Origin: Calvatia gigantea
Taxonomy: Eukaryota; Basidiomycota; Agaricomycetes; Agaricales; Lycoperdaceae
Direction of reading: 5' to 3'
Length of the DNA: 64,000 nucleotides
Assembly (NCBI GenBank): GCA_025093985.1
Contig: JACAAK010000008.1
Location: 1,674,001 to 1,738,000 of the forward strand
Below the pieces are notes generated by a model, which saw only the letters and a list, made by a program, of their open reading frames with translations, was not told the origin of the DNA and did no database searches. Below are positions 3,139 to 62,019 of this stretch, in pieces; positions within the stretch are counted from its first letter, which is position 1, and each line of letters opens with the position of its first letter. A program made the translations under genes and the position numbers.

Positions 3139-4280
3139 ATGTCCCTAGTTGCTGATCTACTCGCTGGTATGAGCCATAGGCCACCCAGCTCATCAAACGA
3201 CCCGTGGGCTGACGACCCGGTCCCGCCGCAATTGTCCCCTGACCCGATCGCCCGTATTCCGGGTGTGGGCTCCCAGCAGCCACAACCCCGCTACCAAACC
3301 CGCGCCTCGACCCAGGCCTCCTCTGGGGAGGGCACACGCCAACGATACGCCGCCGTCCCGATCACGGCACAGCCGCCATCATCAACCTCCTCGAGTGGAA
3401 CCGCCCGACCTCGGTCCCATGCTCCCTCTCGTGCTACCTCCCCCTCTCCTGCGCCGATGGAGATGGCGGACTCTTTCGACGATGACGAGGACGAGGTAGT
3501 GGCCCCTGGTGCCGCTGCTTCTGCGATCGCCACCGATCCCCCTGGGAGCTCCGCTGGCAGAGATATGTCAGTGGAGTCGTTCGGCGATTTGGAGTATGCT
3601 CCATCCGTAGCGGCGTTGGCAGGTGACGAAGAACACCTCGCTGTGGACGTCCAAGGCGCAGCCGAATCCCTGCATAACCTGTCCTCCTGGTTCAGGTCCG
3701 TGCATGCTATGCCGCTCAGCGCGGAATCCACCACAGTGGTACTGGGCGCCGCCTTGGCGTTTGTCCAGTCCCTGTCTAACAATGGCTGGTTGGATCGCTC
3801 TCCAACTGGTCAGTCTAATCCGAGTTGGCTCGGGGGTCACGCTGTGGCCAACATTGCCTCTCGCTACGCTCGTCCCCTGCCTGACAGGAGAGTTACTCCC
3901 CCGCCTCGGCCATCTGGCTCGGGCGATGTTGACGCTGATATGGGAGGCTCCACGCCTAGATCCGGCAGATCGAAGCCGGTTAGAGCTCCCATACCACCAC
4001 CTCCGTTTCAACCCGTCCGTCCTGCTCATCGCGAGCGGGATCTTGTCGAGTCGATCCGGAAGAACACAGAGGCAAAGCGCCTTGCCCTGCAACAGCAACG
4101 GAGGAGTGCACCGGTCCAACCTGGTCCGGTGCGCCCTCTCAACATCACCAAGAAGAAGAAGGCAGTGCCGTCCTCGTACGCACAGACGCTATCTTCCTCT
4201 GGCAAGGGCAAGTCTGCCCAGATCCCTGTGGTCACGGCTGTGCGCATTGCGCAGTCTTTCCCAGAGCTTGAGCCCAAACG
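3139..4280 (+). pseudogene. LN3 ORF1, N-terminal part (gag-like)
   Basis: Starts MSLVADLLAGMS. The first ~380 residues are low-complexity and probably disordered, rich in Pro, Ser, Arg and Ala with an acidic patch (DDDEDE). This resembles N-termini of LINE ORF1 RNA-binding proteins. The family frame runs to ...PELEPKR, where the 6.5-kb element interrupts it; the few extra codons before the stop at 4309-4311 come from the insert. Joining the base before 4281 to 10821 keeps the frame. The start is supported by the same N-terminus in LN2 (18148 on the minus strand). Confidence 0.8.
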
Positions 4281-4751
4281 AGTCGTATTCATCCGGGAGA
4301 CGGTCCAGTAGGAGAGGCGCATGGTAGCGGACATAGTCCTGCTTATACCATCGTACTCAGAGAGTCTTGAGGAGAGGGGAAGCGATGCTTAAAGAAGCTA
4401 GCGTAGAGCAGGGAAGACATAGTGTCTTATGCCAAAGGGCATCGCTAAGAAGCGTACATACTATAATGCTACATAGGGTATATATACTAATATCCCTGGT
4501 CTGTGCACTCTAAACCTTTATACGGGTGAGGTCTAACTACCAGTAGCATAATTGGAGCATACTGTGTACGACGCATGTACTAGAAGGTTCCATGCGGAGT
4601 GAATAACCGACTACCTAAAGGGCGGTACAACTACTGCGTACGTAGTCCGTGATGGTCCGTTATTATCGACCCTCTGAAGGTGAAATACTCGAACCCCGTT
4701 TCAGCTATAAATAGACTGAACCAACGTAGTGGTACGGAGCGAGATTCAACA
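4281..4751 (-). repeat. 3' LTR of the non-coding element, truncated
   Basis: Minus-strand start TGTTGAATCTCGC at 4751, preceded by the purine-rich tract AAGTGAGGAGGAG (minus, about 4752-4764). Identical to the right LTR but missing the ~71 bp that carry CTCTCAACA. TATA-like sequences occur on both strands (TATATATA near 4480-4490; TATAAATA at 4706-4713 on plus). Confidence 0.75.
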
Positions 4752-5467
4752 CTCCTCCTCACTTGAAGGGGGGAAGATTAACGCTTCAATAATCTAGCGG
4801 TATTGAAACCAGACTTAGACATTGGAATCTTCAACAAAAGAGTGGCAGAGCCGAACATCAAATATCGGAGTCATCAACGATCATGCGGAATTAACCAGCT
4901 TTTGAAAGTTGGTAAAGCATTCCTGTAGCGGAGAGGAATTGATGCTAGCGTTTGTTATGATGGCCATAAAGGACGCAACGACAATTGCTTTGAGCTATCA
5001 AATATCCTTTAACTCAACTTTTAAACTCCCGCGACTAACTCGCTGTGACTTTCGTCTAAGAGTAAGGAGTAGGAAAGCCTAAAGAGGCTCCTCCAGAAAT
5101 TGTAAACAGCAATTCTTTCGAAGCGTTCAACAAATCTGTTTTTCCGCATAGGTGCGAAATACAAAAACCATTTTTGCTTATTCAGCATGCGTTTATTGTG
5201 AGATCAGGAAAGTGGCAATAAAGCCAGCGTAGCCAAGGCCGTCACTTTGTGGTTATGTAAATTAATCAGCCGCGGCAGTCACATGAGCCGGCGAAGCAAT
5301 GATGCTACAAGCCTTGTTCTGATTTGACTCGAACAAATTCCAAATTAATGGATTCGCAAATGGAAGTGGTCTCATGCAATTTTCCTCCATGCAAAAGGCA
5401 TTTCGGCCGATGCGGATTAAGGATTCAGTCCCAAGGAATGCATACACACTTTTTGTTATTTCCTGTC
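4752..5467. other. Interior of the non-coding element, no gene seen
   Basis: About 700 bp with no supported coding region. It holds the polypurine tract next to the LTR, one copy of the ~85-bp internal repeat (5231-5315) and one GCGGCAGTCAC motif (5272-5292). CpG is not depleted here, unlike in the surrounding old elements. Confidence 0.6.
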
Positions 5468-7170
5468 AACTCCGAAAAGGAGGGAGGAACGATTAAGTCC
5501 CTTATTTGTTTTTCCATACAGCTCCGAAGAGGTGGAAGGATCTTGAAATTGACCCTGTATATTTTTCCAGACTCTCGATTTGAGGCGGATGGATAAATTC
5601 CATATAGATGTTTTACCGTAGACTCACGAAGAGGCGGAAGGTTACATTCAAAACCTATGAAGTTTTTCCTCGATCTTGTAAAAGAGAGAAAGGATCGTTA
5701 GACCCTATCTTATTTTCATCTTGCGAAAGGAATAAGTTCCTGCCATATTTTTACAGTCGACTCTAGAGCGAGTATGAAGGAATATGTTCCTGATTTATTT
5801 TATCCAACAACTCGTAAGAGGTGGAAAGGTAAAAGCGTAAACCTTATAATATTTTCTCCTACAGCTCGTTAGAGGAGGAAGGAATAATTTCCTAATGTTA
5901 TTTTTGCCCAGGACGCTCGTCTTGAGACGTCAGCGGGGATAACTCCCCAGTTGTTTTATCAGCGGCTCGCGAGAGGCGATAGGAACAATTGAAAGTCCTA
6001 TGAATATATTTTTCCAGCGACTGTGGCGGAAAGGAATATTTATAAACCTAATATGTTTATCCAAGCATCTTCGTATGAAGGCGGAAAGGAATATCATATC
6101 CTTTGTGTTTTCCCCATCAACTCCAAAGAGGAGAGCTCGCAATGACGTAGGAATCGGGATCATGTTGCGGCAGTCACTTGAGCCAGCTAGACAACGCATT
6201 GCGGCAGTCACTCGAGCCATCTAATTGCGGATCCGTTAGACTTTATTGCTAAAGCGAGGTCGACAAAGTGGTTTTGGAAAATGCGGATAAAATCCAGCGT
6301 AATCGCATGAAGGCGGATTAAATCCTGCTCAATCAAGGATCAAAGAATCCTTCCATGTAACACATATAGTGCTTGTCTAGTGTCATTCAAACTCTCTTCT
6401 TATCTGGTAAGCCGAAGCCCGTCAGATTATTCCAGTGTATCTTCTCATCCAGTCTGCAAAAGCAGTTTTGTCATCAACGCTAAGCATTTCTCACATGCGC
6501 GGATAACTGGAGAATTGAATCACAAAAGCGATGCCTTCAACTTAATGAAGTTCCTTTGCTGTTAAGCGCAGGATAAGGCGGTCATCAGATTTGGAGTATG
6601 AATACTGTAACCGTTGTTCTCCTCCATGCTTTTCAGCATGTTAAGTTTCCTAACACATGTTACTCAATCATATCGCTTTTTAGGGCTCAGAGAGTGTTTA
6701 TCATGTATTCACCAGCAATTAAGAACTTGTTTTACTGTACTCCTCCCTCAGCAACGAGTATTTTCGATTTAAATGTCAACGCGCATTGTTAATGGCGGAT
6801 CATTATCGATGCAGTTCCAGAAATAAAAGAATAGCTCATATGGAGGTGTAACCATCTCATATTTTTAGGATGATTTTTCTGAGCTGTTGCGCTTTTCTGG
6901 TAGACGCTAGCGTGAATGCGTAGCAAGTCTTATGCTTGTCCAACTCTAGTCGGTGAGTCCAAACGAGTTCTTCTTTGAAATTGAACGCCTAATCCATTAT
7001 AGTCTACCTGTAGGTGACCCGCGTAATGAACAGTGCGGTCTTTCCTATTCAGGTTCAATTGTGCAATGCATATTAACCAGCATTTTCAAGGCCGTCACTT
7101 TATGGTTATGTAGATCAATTAGCCGCGGCAGTCACTTGAGCCGGCGAAGCAATGATACTACAAGCCTTAA
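5231..7170 (+). repeat. ~85-bp internal direct repeat and dispersed GCGGCAGTCAC motif
   Basis: 5231-5315 and 7086-7170 share a block from CCAAGGCCGTCACTTT to CTACAAGCCTT with only a few substitutions. Inside it is GCGGCAGTCACTTGAGCC, which recurs alone at 6167-6187, 6201-6218 and 9292-9312 as well as 5272-5292 and 7125-7145. Five copies in one 4-kb stretch is far above chance. Confidence 0.8.
5468..6134 (+). repeat. Array of about 14 degenerate ~50-nt double-hairpin units
   Basis: A typical unit on plus has hairpin A (CTC, a 4-6 nt loop, GAG; loops include GTAA and GCGA of GNRA type), then G(G/T)GGAA or GGCGGAA, then hairpin B (AGGAA, short loop, TTCCT), then a T-rich tail such as TATTTTTCC. 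Starts fall near 5468, 5520, 5570, 5621, 5672, 5719, 5759, 5808, 5862, 5912, 5962, 6017, 6065 and 6118. Stem B pairs change together: AGGTT/AACCT (5638-5655), AAGGT/ACCTT (5826-5844), GGGG/CCCC (5935-5948), AAAGGA/TCCTTT (6085-6103). Hairpin A is missing or weak in the units near 5719 and 6017. I know no named family for it. Confidence 0.75.
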
Positions 7171-9904
7171 AAGCGGTAGGTATCCTGTAAAGGATGCGCA
7201 TATTATGCATCAAATTGGCGAATATGTCAGCATAAGACATAGGACATGGTGGGCGGAGATTTCTTGAATGGAAATGGAAAGGAATCAGGAGGTGATCGTG
7301 GAGTGTAATGGAATATATCCTGCGACATCTAAAGATGGCGGATAAAGAAATTGCTATCTCTTGCTTCGTGCAGGTTTTGCTCTCTTCTTTGCAAATGAAC
7401 TGGTTTTACTGCTATCCAGTTGCTGAATCATGGCGTTTAAGGGTATATTCCCTCATCGAGTAAGGCATCCAAATGTGGATTGTTTGTAGAACATTAAGCC
7501 TTTCTGTGTGCTGCTTGAACTTGAAAGTTCTCGTTGATCAAACGATCGAGGTATGTTACATCCCGAATAAGCGATCATGTTTGGGCGGTCATCATGTTAA
7601 CTGATGCGCCGTGAAGCCAAACTCACAGTACAGAACCAAATTAATGGTTTATCCCTTGATTTACACAATTAAGTGTCTTCCACTATAAACGCTTGGACTG
7701 GCGCGTTACGCTCTAGTCAACGCTTAAACTATCACTGAGACGGGTAAGACTTTCCCGTTGCCATAAAGCTTTTAGGCTCTCTAAGTGTAGTGCGGATCAG
7801 TCTTTCTACATCAACCGTTGCGAAAGCATTGGGAGTAGGAGGTTTAAGTGGGTTATTCATGCCACGAATATTTGCTATTGCTCTCATTTAGACAAACTCT
7901 CCTCCATAATCAGTTGCGACATTGACCATTGTCTGCTATACTGTAGAGGTTTCTCTAATGAATCTTAGAGCCTCATAACTTCTTCCGAAGGAGGACAACT
8001 ATTATCATGAGATAAGAGGTCATAGAGAAGCGTCGTAATAGACGACTAGCAATTCCATCAAGTCCGAGTATTACGCTCAAGGACGAGGATATTCGTCTGA
8101 AGGATTCTGGATAAAGGTACTGATGCAATTTCCCTTATGAAATAATCCAGAGTGGCGATGAAATAATGCAATCATCCCAACAAGTCGTAAACGACGAGTG
8201 GAGAAGGCATAATCATGGGAAGTTCTGTTCGATGATGTCAAACGATATAGTCTAGTAGGCGTAATGTTCAACAACCATTCATCTCCTTGCTTGTAATTGC
8301 AAGTTCGTGTACAACGATGAGATTGGGTGAACTATAACAGCTCTGCATGACTTATTGCAAAGGTGGTGACCTTTAACGATTGCCTCAAAAGCATTACACT
8401 CGAGGACATACGTTGTAAGATTTTCTCGATATAGATCGGCCGCACACTAATGTGGCGCTACAAATCTTTATCCCTATTGTCATAGACTAATGCTGGAATA
8501 TGAAAGCAGTTCAGATTCTTGTCGTTCCCGTAGGATTCCAGTTTCTTGCCTCAAGCCTAATGTAAAGTGGCGAGGTCTAAGAATTAATTCTGGTGACATA
8601 GTGCTGAAGCTCAACCATTATACGTTGGGAGCTATTCTGCTAATTCCTAGACGTGTTGTAATTTCCTTTCTTTGTAATGATGCGATTCACGAGATCCTGT
8701 AAAGGATATTCTTCTCAAGTGAATAGAGCAACTTGCTCCCGCTATCATCTTCATATGATCTGTAAGGATTTCTCACTTGTTGCGTAGAAAAGGATTTATA
8801 GCCAGCGCTTACATCTCACGCGGCACACCATTATTCGTAGCATTTATCAAGGAGTATGAAGTCGAAAGTACTATCGTATATCCTTCCATTGGTATCAAGG
8901 TCAGTGACATCCAAAGATGGCGACACAAGAACTCCTCCGGCGCCAAGCTCCGTAAAGAGCGGTCTAAAGGATTTCTTAAGGAATTCGTCGGCGTGTTGCA
9001 TCGTATGGTGCTACACTCATCCTCTTTCTTAATTATAGTTGCTAAATGGTGCGCACAAGTCCTAATCGTGGACGGCGACTTCCATAAAGTCAAACTTCCT
9101 TAAAGCAATCATTGTTATTCCTGTAGTTGGTGGACAAAGCATTTTATCGTGCTCGTCTATGCTCTGACTTAAAACAGGTCTTCAAACTTGGGCGCGTGGA
9201 CATGCGCTTAACACAAGTGAAGGAACGTTGATGCTAGAAGCAGGGCGCGATATATAGCGACGCGGCTCCTCTATAAGGGAAATAGTATATGGCGGCAGTC
9301 GCTCGAGCCAGCGACACATTTAAACTATATTCTGAAGTATTTCCTGAAATGACATAATGGCGGTATTACCAGCTCATTATCCTTCTCCCCTTATTTCCCA
9401 GCTGCAAGGACGCAATAAGCGTTCTTCTCCTTGCTATCTTCTTTGGATATTTTTGCGAATGCTGCAAATGCTGCTGCAACGTAAGCACTGCAAATGCGGC
9501 GGCCCACTGCCTTAGTGTGGCATAAAGCGCTTATAGCGCATGAGCTATCCGTAGAAAGAATAAAGCGGTAGTCGAATAGACGTGGAAGGGGTAAAGCGTT
9601 GAAGCCTGAGGCGAAGGAACGAACGGCGGACTTCTCAAAGATATTTTCTATATCCCAGCTTTATTTGATTTAAGTGGGCCTTAGCGGCTTATAGCTGCCA
9701 GCTTAAGTGGGTCAAATAGCTCAGGTATATGCTCGTGGTGTGTTATTCTACTCAAGGCGGGACTTGCCCAGTCGACTTGAAACACAAGAACACAAGGCTT
9801 ATAATTTGCCTGACACTGCGGTATTATTGCGGTTACTAAGACCAGCTAATTTACCAGCAAAGTGGAGTATAATGCTCAGCGTAAATGATACATCATATAG
9901 TAAA
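6135..9904. other. Interior of the non-coding element, no convincing gene
   Basis: About 3.8 kb with short frames only (largest 108 codons at 8777-9103, without a recognisable domain). It contains further GCGGAT...ATCC mini-hairpins (for example near 6284-6296 and 6312-6325) that resemble hairpin B of the array, the second 85-bp repeat copy, and GCGGCAGTCAC motifs. Base composition is moderately AT-rich with normal CpG. Confidence 0.55.
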
Positions 9905-10265
9905 TTACTGAGGCGGATCTGAAGAGAATCCCAGAAAGCCCAAAGCGTTGTCGTCGATCAGAGAGAGAATACCAGAACAGAGGTGGAGCAACCAGAGCGG
10001 AACAGTTCTGCTGCAACCCGGAATGGGGAGCGGACCTAAAGCGGTCAAACCAGACCGGAGATGACGGTTTGCCAGATCAAAAACCAAGAACGGGTAACAA
10101 CGTGTCAGCATCATGTAGGACTGCTGTGCGTAGTGCACGCGTTCACAACATGGGTCAGACAGGGTATCAAGTGGACCAAAGGCACCACTGTCTCCCAGGT
10201 TGAAAGCGACCGTAGCCTCCTCAAACTCTGCCAGCGTGCTAACGCAGTCTGAGTGAGCGGCGGTC
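9905..10265 (-). other. Open frame next to the primer-binding site, uncertain
   Basis: A 131-codon minus-strand frame spans 9905-10300, but its ATG lies upstream of the primer site inside the LTR. Its GC content is clearly higher than the rest of the interior. Position just after the PBS is where a copia gag leader would begin, so this may be a remnant of the ancestral autonomous element that supplies the packaging signal. No gag motif or zinc knuckle is visible, and I do not call it a gene. Confidence 0.3.
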
Positions 10266-10278
10266 GGGGCCCATAACC
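10266..10278 (-). promoter_or_regulatory. Primer-binding site (half initiator-Met tRNA type)
   Basis: GGTTATGGGCCCC on minus, immediately after the LTR end CTCTCAACA. The identical arrangement occurs in the copia fragment at 321-333, so the two elements probably use the same primer. Confidence 0.75.
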
Positions 10279-10822
10279 TGTTGAGAGAATGAGTAGACAT
10301 CCCAATATAAGTTCACACTACCTAAGCGTGTAGGCGTCAGCGGTGGAGGGTAGTCGTATTCATCCGGGAGACGGTCCAGTAGGAGAGGCGCATGGTAGCG
10401 GACATAGTCCTGCTTATACCATCGTACTCAGAGAGTCTTGAGGAGAGGGGAAGCGATGCTTAAAGAAGCTAGCGTAGAGCAGGGAAGACATAGTGTCTTA
10501 TGCCAAAGGGCATCGCTAAGAAGCGTACATACTATAATGCTACATAGGGTATATATACTAATATCCCTGGTCTGTGCACTCTAAACCTTTATACGGGTGA
10601 GGTCTAACTACCAGTAGCATAATTGGAGCATACTGTGTACGACGCATGTACTAGAAGGTTCCATGCGGAGTGAATAACCGACTACCTAAAGGGCGGTACA
10701 ACTACTGCGTACGTAGTCCGTGATGGTCCGTTATTATCGACCCTCTGAAGGTGAAATACTCGAACCCCGTTTCAGCTATAAATAGACTGAACCAACGTAG
10801 TGGTACGGAGCGAGATTCAATA
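10279..10822 (-). repeat. 5' LTR of the non-coding element
   Basis: About 544 bp on minus, ending CTCTCAACA. It starts TATTGAATC where the other LTR has TGTTGAATC, so the terminal TG reads TA or two bases were lost at the junction with LINE ORF1. The 469 bp shared with the left LTR show no difference. Confidence 0.7.
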
Positions 10823-11691
10823 CCCCCCGCCCTCAAACCAACCACTTTGTTGAAGTTATCAACAGAGGCCTTGTGCAGGCTCGCGTCCGTTGCAGGATCG
10901 AGTTGGTTCGCTCGAGCACGGCCAATTCCTGGTCGTTGCTCACCAACTTTGCCCCCACCCCGAAGGATGTCGCCATCATCGACGAGTGGGCCCATAAGGC
11001 GGTCGCTGAGGGCATTAAGCTCCAGCTCCGTGTCCCCGATTCCACATCCTACATCAGGATCGTGGATATCCCCTTCATCGACGAGCTTGGCCGCAAGGCC
11101 ATGACTGTCGAATGCCTCCTGGGCCATCTGTCGAAGTCTCCGCATCGCGAGGACTTCGCCATGCTGTCTCACACCCCGCGCATCTCGCGCAACTCCGCCA
11201 GCTCTGACACTTGCACAGCTTGGCTCGACCTAGCCGACTCCAAAACCGGCACTCGGATGAAGTGTCTTGTAGGGCGCACCGTCCAGATTGGAACGCACTC
11301 CTGCCGTGTGCAGCAGGCTTCCGCCCGTACCGGGGTCCCCTGGTGTCAGCGCTGCTGGTACTGGGGCCACCCCACTGCTATCTGTCGATCTCGGTTGAAC
11401 AGATGCCCTATCTGCGCTGGGCCTCACACTGCTGAGAACCACCGCACTGTCGCCGGTTGTTGTCATCCTAAGGATCTCAACAAGGCTACCCCCGAGGGAC
11501 AACCGTGTCCCCACAAATTCAAGTGTCTTAACTGCGGTGGTGAACACCGCGCCGACTCCCATTCGTGCCAACTTTGGCGCCACCGGTATGAGGCCGAGTG
11601 GATCAAAGAGCACTATAGAAAGGTGAGTGAACGTCGTCTTTCAAGGATGGCGTCACGATCCGCTGATAACAATTCAGCATCCGCGCAATGA
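10821..11691 (+). pseudogene. LN3 ORF1, C-terminal part with zinc knuckles
   Basis: Continues ORF1 after the insertion (TPRPQTNHFVEVINRGL). A folded segment (WSLLTNFAPTPKDVAII, then LQLRVPDSTSYIRIVDIPF) is followed by CCHC-type knuckles: CQRCWYWGHPTAIC, CPICAGPHTAENH, and a third Cys/His cluster around CLNCGGEHRADSHSC. Such modules bind element RNA. The frame is open to the stop at 11689-11691, which overlaps the ORF2 ATG at 11688 (ATGA), suggesting coupled translation. Confidence 0.85.
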
Positions 11692-46082: not shown

Positions 46083-47207
46083 CTACTTGGAGTCTTCGGA
46101 AAAATCCTTCTTTTCTTCATCACTAACTTCTTCTATTTGGACCTGTATCTTCTTGGGTGCAGTGCAGGCTTTTGCTATATGGCCTGTCTTTCTGCAGTTG
46201 TAGCAGGTTAACCCTTTGGGTTTCTTGCAATCTTTTGCCATATGTCTGAAGATGCCACAATTATAGCATTTGGGTTTTCCTTCAGTGTTGAAGATGTGGC
46301 ATTGGCTTCCTATCTCTATTGGTTCTCCCATTCCTCCATAGGTTGTTCTGGTGTTGGTTTTCTTATCTCCTCGGTATTCTGATGCTTCGTATTCCTGTCC
46401 TACAGTGAGAATGGCTTCTATCCATTCTGTATAGGTGTCTGGTCTGGCACTAGGCAGGTAACCTGTGATGGTGTGAATGATGTCCTGCCTGGCATTCTTC
46501 TTGAGTAGGAACATTGCATGTTTGTTGTCTGTTTTTGCCTTGCTCTTTAGGACTTGGAATTCGATTAGGTAGTCAGCAGTGTTTTTGTTCCCCTGTTTGA
46601 ATTTCTTGATTTGCCACTCCGCTTTGCTGTTCGAGGCATTATTGGAGAAGGTTTTCCTAAAGTCCTTGGAAAATGCTTTCCAGTCCACTGAGTCTTTTCC
46701 ATTTAGGATTTGTAGGGCCTTCATTGCTGCATAGGCTCCTGCTGTTCCTTCTCTTAGCCTGGCTAAGACCGCTATAGCTTTATTATCCACTGAGACTATT
46801 TTGTTGAACTTTATAAAGAGTGTCATTGCTCTCCACCAGTCATCAAATCTGGTACAGGTGCCATCGAAAAATCCCAGGTCTGGCACTAAGCCTTTCCCAC
46901 TAGGCACTGTTGTGGGTACTACTGCATTGTTGGTCATACTGGAGTTGGTTTCTGATTCTGTTTCATCTGAGCTTGATTCGTCTGATTTCTCCTGATGGGT
47001 TAACTCTTTCTCTGCTAGGTCGAGTTTGTTTAAAAGTTCTGATAGTACTTCTTCTTCTGCTGGGTTTGCTCTGGGTTCATTATGTGCTCCTCTGGTAGGT
47101 TCTTCAGGTACTTCAGGGTTTCCTGTTTCTTCTTCATCTGATGTTTCAGATTCATTGTTGGTGACTTTGAGATTTGGTTCTCTATATTCATCTGGGTTCG
47201 AGCTCAT
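46083..47207 (-). CDS. G4 gag (intact, 374 codons)
   Basis: MSSNPDEYREPNLKVTNNESETSD. The acidic first ~110 residues precede a capsid-like region (FDDWWRAMTLFIKFNKI, VLARLREGTAGAYAAMKA, AEWQIKKFKQGNKNTADYLIEF) and two CCHC knuckles (CYNCGIFRHMAKDC, CYNCRKTGHIAKAC). Ends EKKDFSEDSK with TAG. By family it forms the particle and binds RNA. Frame open, though the rest of the element is dead. The shared stop and the -1 position of pol suggest programmed frameshifting near a T-run (GATTTTTCC). Confidence 0.85.
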   Translation of the reverse strand: MSSNPDEYREPNLKVTNNESETSDEEETGNPEVPEEPTRGAHNEPRANPAEEEVLSELLNKLDLAEKELTHQEKSDESSSDETESETNSSMTNNAVVPTTVPSGKGLVPDLGFFDGTCTRFDDWWRAMTLFIKFNKIVSVDNKAIAVLARLREGTAGAYAAMKALQILNGKDSVDWKAFSKDFRKTFSNNASNSKAEWQIKKFKQGNKNTADYLIEFQVLKSKAKTDNKHAMFLLKKNARQDIIHTITGYLPSARPDTYTEWIEAILTVGQEYEASEYRGDKKTNTRTTYGGMGEPIEIGSQCHIFNTEGKPKCYNCGIFRHMAKDCKKPKGLTCYNCRKTGHIAKACTAPKKIQVQIEEVSDEEKKDFSEDSK

Positions 47208-60876: not shown

Positions 60877-62019
60877 CTACTTAGAGTCTTTGGAAAAATC
60901 CTTCTGTTCTCCTGGGCCAGTTTCTTCTACTGCTTGGATTTGTACTTTCTTTGGTGTGGTGCAAACTTTGGTGATGTGACCTGTTTTTCCACAGTTGTAA
61001 CAGGTTAGTCCCTTGGGCTTCTTGCAGTCCTTGGCAATGTGGCTGAAAACACCACAATTGTAGCATTTTGGTTCCCCCTTTGCATTGAAGATGTGGCATC
61101 TGCTGCCTATCTCCATTGGTTCTCCCATTCCTCTATAGGTCATTCTGGTGTTGGTTTTCTTATCTTCCCAGTATTCTGATGCTTCGTACCCCTGTCCCAT
61201 GGTGAGAATGGCTTCCATCCATTCTGCATAGGTATCTGGTCTGGTGCTAGGTGGGTAGCCTGTGATGGTATGGATGATGTCCTGCCTGGCATTCTTCTTG
61301 AGCAGGAACATTGCATGTTTGTTGTCTGTTTTTGCCTTGCTCTTTAGTACTTGGAATTCAATTAGGTAGTTGGCAGTGTTTTTGTTTCCTTGTTTGAACT
61401 TCTCAATTTGCCATTCTGCTTTGCTGTTCAAAGCATCGTCAGAGAAGGTCTTCCTAAAGTCTTCAGAGAATGCTTTCCAATCTACCAAATCTTCTCCGTC
61501 TAAGATTTGTGGAGCCTTCATGGCTGCATAAGCTCCTGCTGTTCCTCCCCTTAGTCTGGCTAAGACTGCTATAGCCTTGTCATCTGCTGAGACTATTTTG
61601 TTGAATTTCATGAAGAGTGTCATTGCTCTCCACCAATTATCAAATTTGGTGCAGGTGCTGTTAAAGAACTCCAGGTCTGGCACTAAGCCTTTCCCATTGG
61701 GTGTTGTTGTGGGTACTACTGCATTGTTGGTCATATTGGAACCAGTTTCTGATTCTGTTTTGTCTGAGCTTGATTCATCTGATTTCTCCTGTCCTGGGTT
61801 CTCCTGATGGGTTAACTCTTCCTCTGCTAGGTTGAGTTCATTTAGAAGTTCTGATAGCGCTTCTTCTTCTACTGGGTTTGCTCCAGGTTCATCATGTATC
61901 TCCTCAATTGGTTCTTCAGGTACTTCAGGGTTTCCTGTTTCTTCTTCATCTAATGTTTCAGATTCATTGTCAGTGACTTTGAGATTTGGTTCTCTATATT
62001 CGTCTGGGTTCGAGCTCAT
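60877..62019 (-). CDS. G6 gag (intact, 380 codons)
   Basis: MSSNPDEYREPNLKVTDNESETLD, acidic N-terminus with Glu/Pro runs, capsid-like middle (FDNWWRAMTLFMKFNKI, VLARLRGGTAGAYAAMKAPQIL, AEWQIEKFKQGNKNTANYLIEF), knuckles CYNCGVFSHIAKDC and CYNCGKTGHITKVC. Ends DFSKDSK-TAG. Nearly identical to the G7 gag. Open frame, but the element cannot move alone with a YMDN RT. Confidence 0.87.
   Translation of the reverse strand: MSSNPDEYREPNLKVTDNESETLDEEETGNPEVPEEPIEEIHDEPGANPVEEEALSELLNELNLAEEELTHQENPGQEKSDESSSDKTESETGSNMTNNAVVPTTTPNGKGLVPDLEFFNSTCTKFDNWWRAMTLFMKFNKIVSADDKAIAVLARLRGGTAGAYAAMKAPQILDGEDLVDWKAFSEDFRKTFSDDALNSKAEWQIEKFKQGNKNTANYLIEFQVLKSKAKTDNKHAMFLLKKNARQDIIHTITGYPPSTRPDTYAEWMEAILTMGQGYEASEYWEDKKTNTRMTYRGMGEPMEIGSRCHIFNAKGEPKCYNCGVFSHIAKDCKKPKGLTCYNCGKTGHITKVCTTPKKVQIQAVEETGPGEQKDFSKDSK

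Follow-up and report, generated by a model that had tools for sequence, protein, structure and literature searches.

A non-coding copia-type LARD of Calvatia gigantea carries a tandem array of diverged hairpin units with conserved arms

It was found that a tandem array of hairpin units is nested inside a non-autonomous copia-type retrotransposon in the window, that is, the whole 64,000-nt stretch of Calvatia gigantea DNA analysed here. The element is filed in this report as a LARD (large retrotransposon derivative). Its RNA-sense strand is the minus strand of the window, its ends are shared with a coding element of the same genome, and the arms of its hairpins vary less among copies than the loops do. 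I consider it rather probable that, in this LARD with its helper's termini, the array has been selected in the sense RNA as a reiterated protein-binding region, most likely one bound by the helper Gag.

The original prediction placed the array inside an LTR element. This holds, since LTRs, a primer binding site (PBS) and a polypurine tract (PPT) were found; the strand (minus sense) and the type of the element (a non-coding LARD with a likely helper) had been missed. Direct repeats with 469 identical bases lie on both sides of the array region in the window's copy. In other copies the LTR repeat is about 540 bp long with the ends TGTTGA and TCAACA; in the window's copy, the left repeat lacks the outer 73 bp or so and the right repeat ends with TCAATA. 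The PBS lies beside the right LTR and the PPT beside the left LTR, and both are read on the minus strand. Thus, the sense strand is the minus strand. The parts of the element are as follows.

4281..10822, minus strand: whole LARD copy, inserted in a LINE; the sense-3′ LTR lacks about 73 bp at its outer end relative to the other LTR
10279..10822, minus strand: sense 5′ LTR, starting in sense with TATTGAATC (TGTTGAATC in other copies) and ending with CTCTCAACA; all 469 of 469 bases that it shares with the other LTR are identical
10266..10278, minus strand: PBS, GGTTATGGGCCCC in sense, adjoining the 5′ LTR; the identical 13 bases follow the helper LTR
10078..10278, minus strand: leader including the PBS, 85% identical to the helper leader (206 columns, copy L009); its end is no more than about 20 nt from the first ATG in the helper gag frame
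4839..10077, minus strand: non-coding interior, to which the compared pieces of the helper have no match
5470..6120, minus strand: hairpin array, 13 diverged units of 41-55 nt
6283..6298, minus strand: small bulged hairpin, GCUGGAU-UUU-AUCCGC in sense
6313..6328, minus strand: small bulged hairpin, GCAGGAU-UUA-AUCCGC in sense
4752..4838, minus strand: sense 3′ end region with the PPT (GTGAGGAGGAG in sense, adjoining the LTR), matching the helper at 82% identity in 88 columns (copy L009)
4281..4751, minus strand: sense 3′ LTR, truncated, a direct repeat of the 5′ LTR

LARDs, with the rice element Dasheng, its helper RIRE2 and the packaging signal, are treated in the relevant part of PMC4558846, and Dasheng and RIRE2 also in that of PMC9033089. 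The present element has the traits of the class: LTRs with TG...CA ends and short target duplications, a non-coding interior of more than 4 kb (5.6 kb here), and a PBS and a PPT adjoining the LTRs. Twenty copies were taken with their flanks. Both ends could be matched in 13 of them, and all of these have LTRs, a PBS, a PPT and a perfect 5-bp target duplication, the other 7 being without a matched end pair; 12 of the 13 are 6684-6740 bp long. The longest ORF overlapping 4750-10351 (ATG, GTG or TTG start) is 131 aa long and extends into the leader and the LTR. No remnant of the helper pol gene was matched in the interior in a comparison with the end pieces of the helper. Rfam gave 0 matches at gathering in the 64 kb and 0 at E up to 1 in 4200-10900. 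About 76 extra nt are present near window position 6706 in 17 of the 20 fetched copies and absent from the window's copy. In priming by a half-molecule of the initiator tRNA, the PBS would be complementary to a tRNA of the genome. Two guessed anticodon-arm patterns for an intronless initiator tRNA matched one place (not a tRNA according to ARAGORN) and none, respectively.

Is there a coding element that could mobilise the LARD? Among 356 candidates, 150 places were scored with the copia reverse transcriptase profile (RVT_2), and 13 of the matches listed are part of frames of 1925-1982 aa and are themselves free of stops. The copia family with these 13 uninterrupted frames, which has L052 and L053 among its places, is probably active in the genome. 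In the one example whose ends were examined, C58, the LTRs are 99.8% identical over 411 bp. This copy spans about 6.8 kb by its coordinates and has an open frame of 1931 aa, the first 332 residues of which match Retrotran_gag_2. Its LTR starts with TGTTGAATCTCG, like that of the LARD, with 70% identity over 290 columns (against copy L009). The PBS and the PPT are common to both elements, and the leader (206 columns) and the last 88 columns before the LTR are alike at the identities given above (85% and 82%, against L009). The shared LTR start, PBS, leader, 3′ end and PPT suggest that an element of the C58 type is likely to be the helper of the LARD, and it may mobilise the LARD in trans. The LARD-type LTR end followed by the PBS was also searched for within 2 mismatches, which gave 140 sites. 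Among the 100 of these listed, one has a listed reverse transcriptase downstream on the same strand (L054) and one on the opposite strand. L054 was rejected as a helper; it has two LARD-type LTRs and a LARD interior, with a copia reverse transcriptase containing stops between them. Thus, L054 is a mosaic.

The 45.95-Mb genome (77 contigs) contains about 125 first-look candidates of the array. Forty were scored, including the window's own, and the stretch 5468-6134 matches the 39 other places at 94-97% identity over nearly its full length. Nineteen of these were taken as arrays only. In 12 copies, the two LTRs were compared with each other and differ by 0, 0, 1, 1, 1, 1, 2, 2, 3, 6, 8 and 10 substitutions in about 468 positions. 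The mean divergence between copies is 5.1% in the interiors (20 rows, with L023 left out for coverage) and 7.3% in the LTRs. Since LTR pairs are nearly identical while interiors are 5.1% apart, most of the variation was probably carried by the transposing lineages. The copies are thus young and derive from a varied set of parents, and conservation among them probably reflects lineages that kept moving. In L054 and its close kin, the array is shorter by about one unit.

The array had been described as about 14 diverged units of about 50 nt. A diverged tandem array is real, with 13 units in 5470-6120, each 41-55 nt in length. In sense, each unit consists of an A-rich spacer, hairpin B, a UUCCGCC-like linker and hairpin A. 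By eye, unit 12 lacks hairpin A and a 14th hairpin-A-like stretch begins at 6121. Averaged over columns, the units are 53% identical. A leave-one-out profile built from the other 12 units found 9 of the 13 held-out units at 7.3-18.6 bits, with a background maximum of 4.8 (4.9 kb of the interior on both strands and 5 kb of the LINE on one strand); units 3, 5, 6 and 10 were not found by it. The covariance model R1 recovered 12 of its own 13 source units in window 1-22000 and nothing outside the array there, on both strands and at E up to 10.

It was predicted originally that stem B changes in pairs between units, and the measurements agree. Matched halves of hairpin B are more complementary than mismatched halves, with a mean Watson-Crick run of 4.54 vs 3.79 (permutation p 0.0029). 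When wobbles are allowed, the permutation p is 0.041 for the plus strand and 0.008 for the minus strand, and duplex energies give p 0.014 (plus) and 0.0007 (minus). Hairpin A is weak in the same kind of comparison; six tests gave p 0.056, 0.35 and 0.066, and 0.070, 0.29 and 0.017 when extended (energies for the plus strand only). The GNRA-type loops that had been ascribed to it exist only on the plus, antisense strand, and the sense loops are UUAC, UCGC and others. In the 12-unit model alignment, 80.3% of the cells are paired, as compared with 71.9% in shuffles (reached by 1 of 500). None of 500 shuffles was as high in the covariation score, which is limited by the fact that the alignment had been fitted to the structure, or in the number of cells changed on both sides. 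The score and the paired percentage are also the top values among seven registers, six of them slid. In the same alignment, the pairs changed on both sides (46/500) and the pair types (106/500) are not significant.

The pairing also has a preferred strand. In context, the mean pair probability of hairpin B is 0.57 in sense and 0.27 in antisense (13 units), and that of hairpin A is 0.40 in both (11 units). By eye, the B stems of units 1, 2 and 5 pair G-U in sense where antisense has A-C, and no unit has the reverse case. When the units are folded singly, the summed MFE z is -2.90 for the minus strand (p 0.003) and -2.86 for the plus strand (p 0.010). Windows of 200 nt across the array have an MFE z from -1.83 to +0.45 on either strand, no lower than neighbouring DNA. 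Shuffled sequence giving equally good hairpins, which had been named in advance as evidence against the array, was therefore obtained for 200-nt windows but not for unit-wise folding (summed z about -2.9). The structure is likely to exist in sense RNA, mainly as hairpin B, while hairpin A is backed by the conservation of its arms. It may also form in cells.

Conservation was assessed with the 40 copies, which share descent, and with a stem annotation drawn by eye from the window's copy ahead of the column counts per class. The annotated arms of hairpin B in unit 1 are off (pair probability 0.00) and were kept in the counts. With CpG masked and with stratification by base, stems are less variable than loops (p 5e-5), in 11 of the 13 units, and 0 of 643 circular shifts gave a difference as strong. 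Thus, the signs of selection on structure that had been proposed are present. The non-CpG mean minor count is 0.16 for A-stem, 0.29 for B-stem, 0.30 for linker, 2.72 for A-loop, 0.76 for B-loop and 1.01 for tail. A loops are thus 17 times more variable than A stems, and B loops 2.6 times more variable than B stems, the B stem against the B loop alone not being significant (p 0.078, 52 of 643 shifts). The linker differs from the tail (p 5e-5), and the T-tract from the rest of the tail with p 0.052. The T-tract, an A-tract in sense, is unpaired and conserved (mean minor count 0.06), so pairing is not the sole constraint. CpG columns of the array have a mean minor count of 4.48 and the others 0.74, a sixfold difference. 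Elevated CpG variation is expected of methylated, deaminating repeats. On the plus strand, T changes less often than G.

Only two compensatory cells, in which both sides changed and pairing was kept, occur across the 40 copies, because the arms are nearly invariant. The support for structure is therefore the conservation of arms against loops and not copy-to-copy covariation. Distinct one-sided changes that leave a wobble weakly favour sense for B pairs (11 sense vs 7), and A pairs show the opposite (5 vs 9). Pair-breaking cells number 7 in B and 2 in A. Since stems are kept while loops drift, the shape of the RNA probably matters.

Does the rest of the interior have similar traits? Over 4750-10351, CCGC occurs 46 times in sense vs 7 in antisense. 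The CpGs within CCGC are somewhat less variable than the remaining CpGs (p 0.02). In the compared pieces of the helper, CCGC outnumbers GCGG on the sense strand as well (10:6 and 13:2), and the LARD is thus not alone in this bias. Watson-Crick stems of at least 5 bp with loops of up to 20 number 130 vs 85 (z 4.9), the array included; stems of at least 6 bp are not in excess in the interior (24 vs 22.6). Mini-hairpins of the form GCGGAT-AAA-ATCC had been noted as far as about 6330. They are real at 6283 and 6313 and belong to a class of word pairs, GC[AT]GG...CCGC, with 11 sense matches, some overlapping, 0 antisense matches and 0.56 per shuffle. The matches start at 4885, 6167, 6283, 6313, 9292, 9360, 9626, 9684 and 9829 and span 4885-9858. 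The inner base pair is formed in 9 of the 11 matches, overlapping matches and related repeats included, and is absent at 4885 and 9626. The same words in reverse order are almost as frequent (9 vs 11), so clustering of the words accounts for part of the excess. A general excess of bulged hairpins is not significant (117 vs 108, sd 9.8; 127 vs 107, sd 11.1). Stems found mechanically outside the array have a variability of 0.018-0.023, as compared with 0.020-0.021 for the rest, which is no clear conservation; they are below loops in three of four cuts. Two stretches of 92 nt in the interior (5224-5315 and 7077-7168) are duplicates of one another with 89% identity; GCGGCAGTC is present in both, and five times in the interior as a whole.

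Two rival readings of the array are live, and I regard either as rather unlikely. The array may act as DNA, its units being protein sites of an insulator-, enhancer- or silencer-like kind in double-stranded DNA, with the cores GGCGGAAGG and TTTTT as the sites and the inverted repeats as dimer sites. The linker and the T-tract are conserved despite being unpaired, GGCGG is found 17 times in one direction and never in the other over 4750-10351, and the energies of 200-nt windows are ordinary, as such a reading would have it. However, the arms differ between units yet match inside units, so they are not one fixed word, and the B stems suit sense RNA better than antisense. The gypsy element of Drosophila carries reiterated Su(Hw) insulator sites, and it is alike in having about a dozen diverged sites within an LTR element; in contrast, the inverted arms of the present array change in concert and suit one of the two RNA strands more than the other. 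Alternatively, the array may be an old tandem repeat whose structure has no function and which serves as a spacer, keeping the RNA packable in length; mutation bias and the common descent of the copies would then produce the apparent constraint. With 6684-6740 bp in 12 of 13 copies, the LARD is close in length to C58 (about 6.8 kb), the variation is heavily CpG, and T changes are rarer than G changes on the plus strand. What the spacer leaves unexplained is the stem-loop difference, which survives CpG masking and base stratification (p 5e-5; the B stem and loop alone are not significant).

A doubtful further possibility is that the LARD is a packaging parasite, whose interior would be a string of high-affinity sites for helper Gag through which its RNA outcompetes the coding RNA for particles. 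Under this equally doubtful extension, the sites would be the UCCGCC linkers and the bulged GCUGG...CCGC hairpins flanked by short stems, and the LARD is likened to the defective-interfering genome of a virus. It is very improbable that the units are nuclear relatives, mobile on their own, of fungal mitochondrial double-hairpin elements, which the original prediction had offered as the nearest analogue. Those are isolated mobile units in mitochondrial DNA and also have two hairpins per unit. In contrast, the array is tandem and borne by an LTR element, with no isolated units in window 1-22000, where all 12 matches of R1 are array units. The leave-one-out background contained no units and Rfam gave no match, and no link was found.

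I thus prefer selection on the sense RNA. The LARD would have retained the leader, PBS, PPT and LTR start of the helper, with about 5.2 kb of non-coding RNA in place of gag-pol. Given the shared parts and known copia biology, the LARD would be transcribed in sense, packaged by proteins of the helper and copied by them in trans; priming would take place at the shared PBS, and integration would follow. Selection would keep the arms, the linker and the A-tracts of the short hairpins in the sense RNA. Together with the other CCGC and hairpin motifs, the array may offer a series of repeated protein-binding sites on the genomic RNA; the best guess for its role is packaging or protein binding. Helper Gag is the most likely partner, and it would bind the array during packaging or during RNA folding in the particle.

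Judging from the parts of PMC4558846 and PMC9033089 concerned, Dasheng and RIRE2 are alike in the LTRs, PBS, PPT, a non-coding interior of more than 4 kb and a helper with shared termini. The present LARD differs in being copia-type and in the tandem array of hairpins in its interior, in which conservation extends to the arms but not to the loops. The packaging signals (psi) of retroviruses and retrotransposons are also alike in being RNA structure in a non-coding part of a packaged genome (PMC4558846 in part). Unlike psi, the array is reiterated 13 times and lies about 4.0-4.6 kb downstream of the end of the leader in sense. No LARD with a comparable hairpin array was found in the literature searched, which was one library with partial coverage of the fungal papers that mention LARDs. 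This family was recently active, its helper seems to be intact, the array has about 125 candidate copies and its constraint has been measured, so that it becomes testable here what maintains the large non-coding interiors of LARDs.

Around the LARD, window 1-20075 is a nest of a LINE (RVT_1 and endonuclease), a copia remnant (RVT_2) and the LARD itself. The nest also contains a copia-like LTR end with the PBS word of the LARD next to it, at 321-333. In the AT-skewed half of the window, the minus strand encodes two zinc-knuckle gag proteins (Retrotrans_gag), at 46083-47207 and 60877-62019.
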